A stretch of DNA of 64,000 nt from Rossellomorea marisflavi (lineage in GTDB: Bacteria > Bacillota > Bacilli > Bacillales > Bacillaceae_B): positions 1,255,001 through 1,319,000 of the forward strand of contig CP033051.1 in the NCBI GenBank assembly GCA_003667865.1, read 5' to 3'. This document shows, piece by piece, positions 14,612 to 42,716 of this stretch (position 1 is the stretch's first letter; every line of letters starts with the position of its first letter). Under the pieces are notes generated by a model that worked only from the letters and a program-made list of their open reading frames with translations, ran no database searches and was not told the DNA's origin. Made by a program: the position numbers and the translations under genes.

Positions 14612-14640
14612 TTGAACACAAATTCTCCATGTGGTAAAGT
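14612..14640 (+). promoter_or_regulatory. SigA promoter of the hisS2 leader
   Basis: TTGAAC (14612-14617), a 17-base spacer and TAAAGT (14635-14640). Transcription would start near 14647, just before the leader peptide's ribosome binding site. Confidence 0.6.
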
Positions 14641-14664
14641 AATGGAAATATGAGGTGATTTCCT

Positions 14665-14721
14665 ATGCTTTCCAATAGAAGAAGGATCAATCTTTCACAA
14701 CAACATCATCATACATTGTAG
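14665..14721 (+). CDS. Histidine-rich leader peptide of hisS2
   Basis: An 18-codon frame, MLSNRRRINLSQQHHHTL, with a strong GAGGTG site seven bases before its ATG. Three consecutive CAT histidine codons (14704-14712) sit three codons before the stop. It lies in the leader of a histidyl-tRNA synthetase gene and immediately before a set of competing hairpins, which is the layout of a transcription-attenuation leader. A ribosome stalled at the His codons for lack of charged tRNA-His would cover the first hairpin. Confidence 0.75.
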   Translation: MLSNRRRINLSQQHHHTL

Positions 14722-14818
14722 TCTTGCTAGTCGATTTATAAAAATCGTACATAGGAAGACTATTTATCATGAACCGCATTGATTAGTGTTTTAACTACTA
14801 AATCAGTGGGGTTTTTTT
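14719..14818 (+). promoter_or_regulatory. Predicted ribosome-mediated attenuator of hisS2
   Basis: Three mutually exclusive pairings can be drawn. The first hairpin is TAGTCTT (14719-14725) with AAGACTA (14756-14762), with an inner CGATTT/AAATCG stem. The antiterminator is ACTA and ATCA (14759-14769) with TGATTAGT (14780-14787). The terminator is 14772-14788 with 14795-14813 followed by seven T. Stalling at the His codons blocks the first hairpin, frees the antiterminator strand and allows read-through; normal translation lets the terminator form. No T-box sequence was seen here. Confidence 0.68.
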
Positions 14819-14899
14819 ATTTTCTAAAAAGTTGTTAAGGAAGAAAATGAGGAAGCATCATTGCCTTACATCAAAAAAATATATACGGAGGAATAATTT

Positions 14900-16174
14900 A
14901 TGAAGAAGATGGAATATCAAAATGTAAAAGGAACTCAGGATTATTTACCTGAAGCAGAAGGGATCAGAATGAAGGTTAGAAGGGAATTGGAAGATGTCTT
15001 TATTCAATATGGCTGTAAACCTTTGGAAACACCTATTTTAAATTATACAGAATTACTCTCTTCTAAATATGGTGGAGGAGCGGAAATATTAGAAGAAATG
15101 TACACATTGTCGGACCGTGGAGAGAGAGAACTAGCTTTACGCTATGACCTTACGATACCATTTGCTAAAGTGGTTGCTATGAATCCAACGCTTAGAATGC
15201 CTTTCAAAAGATACGAAATAGGCAAAGTGTTTCGAGATGGTCCTATAAAAGCAGGGAGATTTCGGGAATTTACACAATGTGATGTCGATATTGTGGGGGT
15301 GAGCTCTCAAATAGCGGAGGCTGAATTAATGGAAATGGCCTTGGAGGCTTTTCGCCGACTAGACCTTAACGTGACGATTCAGTACAATAATCGAAAGCTT
15401 CTAACAGGTATGCTAAAGCTTTTTGCAACTCCAGAAGATAAAATGAATGAAACTGTACTAGTATTAGATAAGCTCGAGAAAATGGGTATTGAAGCAGTAA
15501 AAAATGAGCTTTCAGAAAAAGGGTTAGCAAGTAAAGTGGTCAAGAATATAGAAGAGTTCCTCACTAATCCAAACAACACATCACTTGACTATTTTTTCTC
15601 CTATACAAATGAAAATAAAGAAATTCTAGAAGGAGTAAAAGAACTTAAAGAGCTTCAAACATATCTGCAATATATGGGAATTTCAGCACAATGTATCTTC
15701 AATCCGTTTCTAGCCAGAGGGTTAGAAATCTACACAGGTACGATCTATGAAATCTTCTTATCCAACAAGGAAATTACATCAAGTATCGGGAGTGGCGGTC
15801 GTTATGATAACGCAATAGCTGGGCTAATCGGTACTACTGAATCATTCTCGACAGTGGGAATATCATTTGGTTTAGACGTCATCTACACAGCGTTAAGCAA
15901 CACTGATTTCAAAGTAGATGGGGAGCTAGATTATTATATTATCCCACTACAAACAAAAAAAGAAGCCCTACTAGTCGCCACATCCTTTAGAAGAAAAGGC
16001 TACAAAGTAGAGCTAGAAATGTCAGACAAAAAACTTGGAAAAGCACTAGACCGTGCCAATAAAGAAGGCATTCAAAACGTCATCATCATCGGTGAAAACG
16101 AAGTAAGCAACAATAGAATCAAAATTAAAAATATGATCACTGGAGAAGAAAGAACAGAGTCGTTTTCATTTTGA
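14900..16174 (+). CDS. Histidyl-tRNA synthetase, second-type (HisS2)
   Basis: A class II synthetase that charges tRNA-His. It opens with the family's KGTQDYLP. Motif 2 reads VFRDGPIKAGRFREFTQCDVD, the histidine-A region ARGLEIYTGTIYEIF and motif 3 GSGGRYDNAIAG. A C-terminal anticodon-binding domain covers about residues 330-424. These variants (RDGPIKAGRF, EIYTGTIYE) are those of the additional HisS of some bacilli rather than the housekeeping enzyme, so a main hisS-aspS copy is expected elsewhere. The ATG follows ACGGAGGA. It is controlled by the His-codon leader upstream. Confidence 0.9.
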   Translation: MKKMEYQNVKGTQDYLPEAEGIRMKVRRELEDVFIQYGCKPLETPILNYTELLSSKYGGGAEILEEMYTLSDRGERELALRYDLTIPFAKVVAMNPTLRMPFKRYEIGKVFRDGPIKAGRFREFTQCDVDIVGVSSQIAEAELMEMALEAFRRLDLNVTIQYNNRKLLTGMLKLFATPEDKMNETVLVLDKLEKMGIEAVKNELSEKGLASKVVKNIEEFLTNPNNTSLDYFFSYTNENKEILEGVKELKELQTYLQYMGISAQCIFNPFLARGLEIYTGTIYEIFLSNKEITSSIGSGGRYDNAIAGLIGTTESFSTVGISFGLDVIYTALSNTDFKVDGELDYYIIPLQTKKEALLVATSFRRKGYKVELEMSDKKLGKALDRANKEGIQNVIIIGENEVSNNRIKIKNMITGEERTESFSF

Positions 16175-42489: not shown

Positions 42490-42716
42490 ATAAAAAAGCC
42501 TCATCTCTAAAATAGAGACGAGGCTTACTCGCGGTACCACTCTTGTTCCCCTAAGGGCTCTTACTAGATAACGGGTTCTCCGTCCTTACCTACTTCCAAA
42601 GGTTCAATAAGGATTCTCAGAAGTGCGGTTCATTCTATTCTTCACGCCAAGCTTTCACCGATCCTTGGCTCGCTTTGATCCAATATAGAATTACTCTCTT
42701 CTTCAATGAATGGTTA
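42490..42716 (-). ncRNA. T-box riboswitch of argS, specifier CGC
   Basis: On the minus strand, the conserved T-box sequence GAGTGGTACCGCG (about 42544-42531) is followed by the terminator AGCCTCGTCTCTA / TAGAGATGAGGCT with six T. Stem I has AGTA near its base and ATTCTAT/ATAGAAT. The specifier loop reads GAAC-CGC-A, with CGC (42627-42625), an arginine codon. Uncharged tRNA-Arg would stabilise the antiterminator and raise synthetase expression. Confidence 0.95.

Follow-up and report, generated by a model that had tools for sequence, protein, structure and literature searches.

A histidine-codon leader with a stop-anchored hairpin precedes the second histidyl-tRNA synthetase gene of Rossellomorea marisflavi and is a probable transcription attenuator

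Leader-peptide attenuators that respond to amino acids are textbook systems in Proteobacteria, and few have been studied in Bacilli, where T-boxes dominate and the coupling between ribosome and RNA polymerase is thought to be loose. In the enterobacterial his and trp attenuators the regulatory codons overlap strand 1, and a ribosome resting at the leader stop codon masks strand 2. We analysed a 64,000-nucleotide stretch of the Rossellomorea marisflavi genome (contig CP033051.1, positions 1,255,001 to 1,319,000; hereafter the window), in which hisS2, the gene for a second histidyl-tRNA synthetase, is preceded by a leader with the same parts as the enterobacterial his and trp attenuators: a run of regulatory codons, a leader stop, a hairpin and an intrinsic terminator. 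The hisS2 leader differs from them in that its stop codon is the foot of strand 1 and in that no conserved antiterminator is found in the window's family. The other close comparison is the T-box of the canonical hisS, which presumably answers to the same signal (uncharged tRNA-His) and serves the same enzyme activity; a T-box, unlike the leader peptide of hisS2, binds the tRNA directly.

The original prediction for this locus knew of no described His-leader attenuator for a Firmicute hisS, a statement that went too far, since a His leader upstream of hisZ and of a Bacillus hisS paralogue (hisS*) had been predicted by Naville and Gautheret in 2010 (PMC2965389). Judged by the description given in the relevant section of that paper, their computationally derived leader resembles ours in having a His-codon open reading frame (ORF) and a terminator 5' of a second bacilli hisS; that section sets out no structural logic, and the present work adds the stop-anchored hairpin, the missing antiterminator, a glutamine form before glnS and a spread over many genera. 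Candidate His-leader attenuators have also been reported before the his operons of three Firmicute lineages, namely the B. cereus group, Peptostreptococcaceae with Lutispora, and Erysipelotrichales (Ashniev et al. 2022; PMC9413887). As those sections describe them, they share with the hisS2 leader three to five consecutive His codons right before the attenuator, and they differ from it in their target, a biosynthetic operon, and in the antiterminators reported for them. The S. aureus ilv-leu leader, a leader-peptide attenuator with experimental support (PMC5794164), is likewise an amino-acid-codon attenuator in a Firmicute, and from its description it is unlike hisS2 in its Leu and Ile codons, its biosynthetic operon and its structure. 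A His leader before a bacilli hisS paralogue is already predicted, and the layout found here is not the textbook one; in the open-licence literature we found no account of a covarying hairpin anchored on the leader stop, of a missing classic antiterminator or of the Gln/glnS version.

The 5' leader of hisS2 is probably a leader-peptide transcription attenuator that senses charged tRNA-His and lets more hisS2 be made when charged His-tRNA is short. It contains an ORF with cognate codons 5' of the gene and an intrinsic terminator between the two, as such attenuators do, and it departs from the trp/his type in that, in the window's family, neither an antiterminator that excludes the terminator nor regulatory codons lying over strand 1 with a stop that masks strand 2 were found. 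All elements lie on the forward strand. The Shine-Dalgarno sequence GAGGTGA (14652 to 14658), whose columns are conserved in an alignment of 70 leaders, precedes an ORF of 18 codons (MLSNRRRINLSQQHHHTL, 14665 to 14721) that ends in QQHHHTL and a TAG stop (14719 to 14721). Its three CAT His codons occupy 14704 to 14712, as seen in the sequence and in the spacing and codon counts of the 70 leaders. Hairpin 1 (14719 to 14762, predicted energy -17.2 kcal/mol) has a 5' arm that begins with the stop codon itself (14719 to 14730), a 3' arm at 14751 to 14762 and a G.G mismatch. A 9-nucleotide linker with conserved columns (14763 to 14771) leads to the terminator (14772 to 14818, predicted energy -16.2 kcal/mol), which closes with seven T at 14812 to 14818. 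Taken together, 14717 to 14820 folds at -36.5 kcal/mol, against -15.9 +/- 2.9 kcal/mol for shuffled sequences (z = -7.07; none of 200 shuffles was as good). The gene hisS2 itself (14900 to 16174) encodes a protein of 424 amino acids assigned with NCBIfam to the NF009085/PRK12420 type. The strong ribosome binding site, the 18-codon ORF, the hairpin starting at the leader stop and the terminator with its seven T had all been read from the DNA beforehand, and each stood up to this closer inspection, the hairpin and the terminator also by covariation. Leader ORF, hairpin and terminator are firm as sequence features, and the ORF is presumably translated.

The leader is conserved in nearly all hisS2 genes of this kind. 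A search of the genus recovered hisS2, at no less than 63% identity, from 22 of the 35 other genomes, and a scan of named genomes yielded 323 loci, of which the best 80 were kept; once identical genes were dropped, 88 distinct hisS2 genes remained, the window's included. For 87 of these 88 genes a short ORF lies upstream in which two or more neighbouring His codons stand close to the stop; three of the leaders (L094, L099 and L103; labels in L, G and f are our own for loci, genomes and families) had been missed by the start-site rule and were entered by hand. A few leaders depart from the full run, with just two His codons or with another codon in place of one (L052, L062, L064, L066 and L081 among others). 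In the only leaderless gene, L051 of Oceanobacillus sp. J11TS1, inspection by eye shows nothing of the attenuator except the 3' end of the terminator, and its paralogue L050, about 12 kb away on the same contig, retains the leader. The first half of the leader peptide is variable and its C-terminus often reads SQLHHHIK; His codons in the last seven codons of 70 leaders are CAT in 203 cases and CAC in 9. Within the window the pattern CAYCAYCAY occurs 12 times on both strands against 3.65 expected, so that the triplet alone is not rare.

For comparative work we used alignment A1, with 70 of the 87 leaders after removal of those more than 93% alike, alignment A2, with 54 of the 69 leaders that have a clear landmark (15 near duplicates were removed by hand, and L073 lacks the landmark), and alignment A5, with 11 of 17 sequences. 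A covariance model of the leader, R1, was built from His leaders alone. Within the genome of 4.59 Mb that contains the window, R1 reaches E <= 0.001 at a single place, the hisS2 leader, and it matches 67 of 397 genomes of the order, hisS2 being present in 62. Sixty of the 70 R1 matches (59 genomes) lie directly 5' of hisS2, with a gap of 26 to 343 nucleotides (median 29). The three hisS2 genomes without R1 comprise two with a broken or truncated hisS2 and one (G234) with a diverged His leader. Among 398 genomes drawn from the class, R1 was found in seven, two of them weakly. We set aside the weak matches in G078, G147, G297 and G341 (E 1e-4 to 6e-4), which look chance-like by eye, and those in G176 and G313, which are the opposite strand of true matches. 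Four strong matches fall in genomes without an intact hisS2 (G181, G085, G237 and G260). In G181 the leader (L152), whose hairpin looks decayed, stands 5' of hisS2 fragments (tblastn E 8e-9). In G085 a leader ending LVQLHHIN (L151), with hairpin and terminator, is followed by a gene for a HAD-family hydrolase (Pfam 8e-18), and no hisS2 remnant was found in that genome.

Both stems covary strongly. Across the 70 leaders, 99.4% of the alignment cells in hairpin 1 and the terminator are paired, and 49 cells are changed on both sides, compared with 12.3 +/- 2.7 in shuffled alignments and 0 to 11 in slid versions. The leader stop codon itself belongs to the helix, with the pair G83-C130 becoming A-U in seven leaders and G-U in three, and UAG:CUA becoming UAA:UUA where the stop changes. 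In family f26, inspected by eye, L259 pairs UGA with UUA, and L257 has UUG in place of UAG with CAA opposite, its ORF continuing into the hairpin. The spacing is equally constrained: six nucleotides separate the last His codon from the RNA-level UAG in 59 of 70 leaders, and of the six leaders that stop upstream of that UAG, five stop one codon earlier and these five keep the six-nucleotide distance. We also compared duplex energies of each leader's own strands with those of strands swapped between leaders, for 21 segment pairs on 69 of the 70 leaders and 12 more on 67 of 70, and this comparison recovered hairpin 1 (own better in 55 of 69) and the terminator (69 of 69). The original prediction had proposed looking in relatives for His-codon runs with covarying hairpins, and both are there. 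The G.G mismatch of hairpin 1 (A1 columns 88 and 125) is nearly always kept, being absent in L021 and L090. A second start, AGGAAGG-AUG, within hairpin 1 was considered and dropped, its AUG not being conserved.

HisS2 scores 634.7 bits against the PRK12420-type NCBIfam model (cut-off 540) and 148 against the hisZ model, under its cut-off of 272; the closest solved chains are histidyl-tRNA synthetases, several of them labelled cytoplasmic. The same genome also encodes a canonical hisS (TIGR00442, 522.8 bits) and hisZ, and the canonical hisS has a T-box about 100 nucleotides upstream (RF00230, 118.6 bits). Of the 28 RF00230 matches in the genome, 19 are above the cut-off and none is at hisS2, in agreement with the earlier statement that no T-box precedes this gene. 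We count the T-box on the canonical hisS in favour of a leader-peptide mechanism for hisS2. An Rfam covariance scan of the window returned three matches (T-box, glmS and c-di-GMP-I), none at the hisS2 leader, and the Rfam his leader RF00514 (numbered as in PMC9413887) gave no match to it above the gathering score. The T-box match within the window lies at 42511 to 42715 on the minus strand.

A codon swap is seen in the other two genomes without an intact hisS2. Their R1 leaders end in QLQQQN (G237; L153/L245) and TIQQQQ (G260; L154/L246), with Gln codons replacing the His codons, and a similar hairpin and terminator follow, then a gene for an RlmI-like methyltransferase (best NCBIfam match under its cut-off), and then glnS (in G237, TIGR00440 725 bits, cut-off 425.8). 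We therefore surveyed the upstream regions of 80 of 124 listed glnS places. Six have a QQ-type ORF, two of them (L187 and L222) without a hairpin, and the four clear Gln leaders with a hairpin all belong to family f26: the two above and two found by the scan, ending RRQQQQI (L202, G103) and HVQQQK (L204, G187). In the same genus, L203 and L206 have Gln codons and a hairpin, yet no stop at the hairpin foot, and in the same family L208 has neither Gln codons nor hairpin before glnS. The G.G mismatch also appears in the predicted folds of Gln leaders. Of 299 genomes of the order, 114 have glnS, and ten of these carry two matches. Related leaders appear to have been recoded from His and hisS2 to Gln and glnS. 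The change of codons went with a change of target gene, and the hairpin and terminator persisted; a codon-specific stall sensor predicts this, and the natural swap argues for codon-specific ribosome stalling. Full-text searches of open-licence papers did not find a comparable glnS leader among the papers listed; one source, in the part that bears on this, labels a predicted RNA element before Shewanella glnS as a synthetase leader (PMC2659441). The proposal that the His-codon leader and its terminator act as a His-tRNA sensor is well supported, at the level of sequence, by conservation, covariation and the Gln/glnS swap.

These data also bear on whether the short ORF might instead encode a functional His-rich microprotein, for example a metal-binding one, with a terminator that is leaky and constitutive. 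The well-conserved C-terminal SQLHHHIK would suit such a product; the N-terminal half is free to vary, leaders before glnS carry Gln codons in place of the His codons, the ORF stop codon covaries with the hairpin and hisS2 follows directly in 60 of 70 R1 matches, and we regard this explanation as very improbable.

We then asked how the ribosome could influence the terminator, using folding in which the ribosome masks 12 nucleotides past the first base of the A-site codon, a footprint taken from general knowledge. In a classic trp/his-type scheme, as the original prediction had it, a ribosome stalled at the His codons masks the 5' arm of hairpin 1, whose 3' arm, together with the linker, can then pair with the terminator's 5' arm. 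The 8-bp pairing proposed for this purpose, 14759-14769 with 14780-14787, can indeed be drawn in the window, at -2.7 kcal/mol, and is not conserved. In 70 relatives, 71.7% of cells are paired in the helix between linker and terminator; the shuffles reach 71.0%, and 107 of 500 were as high. Own strands pair at -3.09 kcal/mol and swapped ones at -3.80 kcal/mol, the own pair being ahead in 25 of 69 leaders. When region 2, the linker and the 5' arm of the terminator were folded by themselves, the structures were weak and varied, so that neither folding, energies, pair counts nor masked folds revealed a conserved competitor of the terminator in the window's family. Some other pairings were somewhat better own than swapped, namely the His stretch with the terminator 5' arm (44 of 69), the Shine-Dalgarno sequence with the terminator 3' side (42 of 69), the hairpin 5' arm with the terminator 3' side (39 of 69) and upper-stem with terminator strands (52, 55 and 50 of 67). 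We did not use them, their energies being small or the pairing being of A-runs with U-runs, and clade composition could explain them.

The position of the ribosome tells against the classic scheme as well. Of the seven lower pairs of hairpin 1, 6.66 are left with the ribosome at the first His codon, 2.33 at the last and none at the stop. The idea that a ribosome held at the CAT codons covers the hairpin 5' arm therefore holds in part: at the last His codon it opens about two thirds of the lower stem, which favours the classic type, whereas at the first the stem stays closed. The stop codon being the 5' foot of hairpin 1, full opening needs a ribosome at the stop and not at His, and since a ribosome there masks the same arm even more, the classic scheme would hardly separate starvation from plenty. 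With no conserved antiterminator and the stop at the hairpin foot, we consider the Proteobacterial his-type mechanism a poor candidate for this leader.

More distant homologues suggest a longer arrangement. Among 392 genomes searched, 31 gave a hit at E <= 1e-80, and 28 of these, in families f68, f50 and f65, have hisS2 homologues of 41-56% identity; 23 of the 27 upstream regions examined out of these 28 contain HH or HHH leaders, such as MFLQQHHHT and NQLHHHKQR. Their attenuators are GC-rich, and an Rfam scan of 20 of the 27 gave no match. They can be read as five segments that pair as A:B, B:C, C:D and D:E, with A at the stop codon and D:E as the terminator. In masked folding of the f68 leaders (n = 17), the predicted antiterminator C:D averages a probability of 1.00 when the first His codon occupies the A site and 0.20 when the ribosome is at the stop, and B:C rises from 0.00 to 0.80; the two helices share five bases of segment C and exclude each other. 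In f50 and f65 (n = 10), C:D falls from 0.78 to 0.32 and B:C rises from 0.31 to 0.90. The f68 antiterminator also dominates without a ribosome (0.92), which is the reverse of trp. In L288 one pair of C:D is A-U instead of G-C. Many f68 sequences are nearly identical, so that the 17 are not independent cases. The modelling suggests that, in the distant leaders, a ribosome stalled at His does not open hairpin 1 and that readthrough is then favoured, clearly in f68 with exceptions and more weakly in f50 and f65.

Given this geometry and the distant leaders, the likeliest scheme is one in which readthrough accompanies a closed hairpin 1. With enough charged His-tRNA, the ribosome would pass the three His codons, reach the stop and open hairpin 1, and the terminator would end most transcripts. 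With charged His-tRNA short, ribosomes would stall on the His codons, hairpin 1 would stay closed while they wait, and more polymerase would read through into hisS2. This sign of the response is the one we favour by analogy. In the distant relatives the coupling appears to run via two further helices; the compact form of the window has neither segment C nor these two helices, and there the last step may perhaps be polymerase pausing at the conserved linker.

Where the linker joins the end of hairpin 1 the window reads CUAUUU, close to the NusG pause motif TTNTTT and of putative role; among 54 leaders, columns 83, 85 and 86 are T in 54, 53 and 54, column 87 is T in 43, and column 82 has C in 46 leaders and T in the other 8, for a consensus YUAUUU. 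On a pause-coupling account, hairpin 1 would be a pause hairpin acting with a NusG motif in the linker, the arrival of the ribosome at the stop would free the pause, and stalling at His would shift the timing of the terminator. The conservation of YUAUUU speaks for it, and so does the report, in the parts describing these systems, that NusG pausing is needed for induction at B. subtilis tlrB and tunes vmlR (PMC6851288, PMC9226507). The first T of the motif is mostly C, however, the motif is absent from at least two GC-rich Gln leaders (L202 and L204), and the account leaves unexplained why a pause would alter termination; as a full explanation we think it unlikely, though less so than the classic scheme, and the likeness of the linker to the NusG motif is only a lead.

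Several observations weigh against the attenuator interpretation. In the window's family no pairing in competition with the terminator responds to where the ribosome sits, the terminator 5' arm being paired upstream to a similar, low degree (0.23-0.33) in every ribosome state. A clear Gln leader with a hairpin was seen in only 4 of 80 glnS upstreams, plus the two variants, and four of the ten f50/f65 leaders (L281, L282, L285 and L287) read HYYH or YYH, a mixture of Tyr and His. The f50/f65 switch is weaker because B:C and C:D share only two bases there and can mostly coexist. Individual leaders also behave differently: L262 and L263 do not switch, their antiterminator standing at 0.99-1.00 even at the stop; it stays at 0.44 and 0.66 at the stop in L269 and L286 and reaches just 0.16 at the first His codon in L280. 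L159, the diverged leader of G234, represents a third architecture without antiterminator; read by eye as a clean five-segment switch, it was rejected as such when masked folding showed one hairpin dominant in all states. Lastly, B. subtilis RNA polymerase outruns the lead ribosome, in the account given by PMC9226507, which makes leader-peptide control harder.

A SigA-like promoter candidate, TTGAAC-17-TAAAGT, is present at 14612 to 14640 (-35 at 14612-14617, a 17-nucleotide spacer, -10 at 14635-14640), as stated originally, and with just 8 of 12 consensus matches it is missing from a stricter promoter scan. In 36 of 70 relatives the best -10 box ends 24-31 nucleotides 5' of the leader ATG, and the mean best score is 8.7 against 8.1 in shuffles, which leaves this promoter plausible only.

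More broadly, these leaders may, tentatively and with more doubt than confidence on our part, form a codon-programmable family of synthetase attenuators in Bacilli whose geometry is reversed ("on unless translated to the end"), with a longer and a compact form and a swap from His/hisS2 to Gln/glnS. Because the leader stop forms the foot of hairpin 1, the hairpin would remain closed and readthrough would be allowed whenever the leader is idle or stalled. The stop-anchored hairpin then predicts that blocking translation of the leader raises readthrough, the opposite of trp, and the matched His/hisS2 and Gln/glnS leaders offer a ready-made natural codon-swap experiment. For R. marisflavi, one genome would hold two sensors for one amino acid, a T-box on hisS and a leader peptide on hisS2. 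If the reversed geometry is true, only a ribosome that reaches the stop would trigger termination, in bacteria whose polymerase usually runs ahead of the ribosome.

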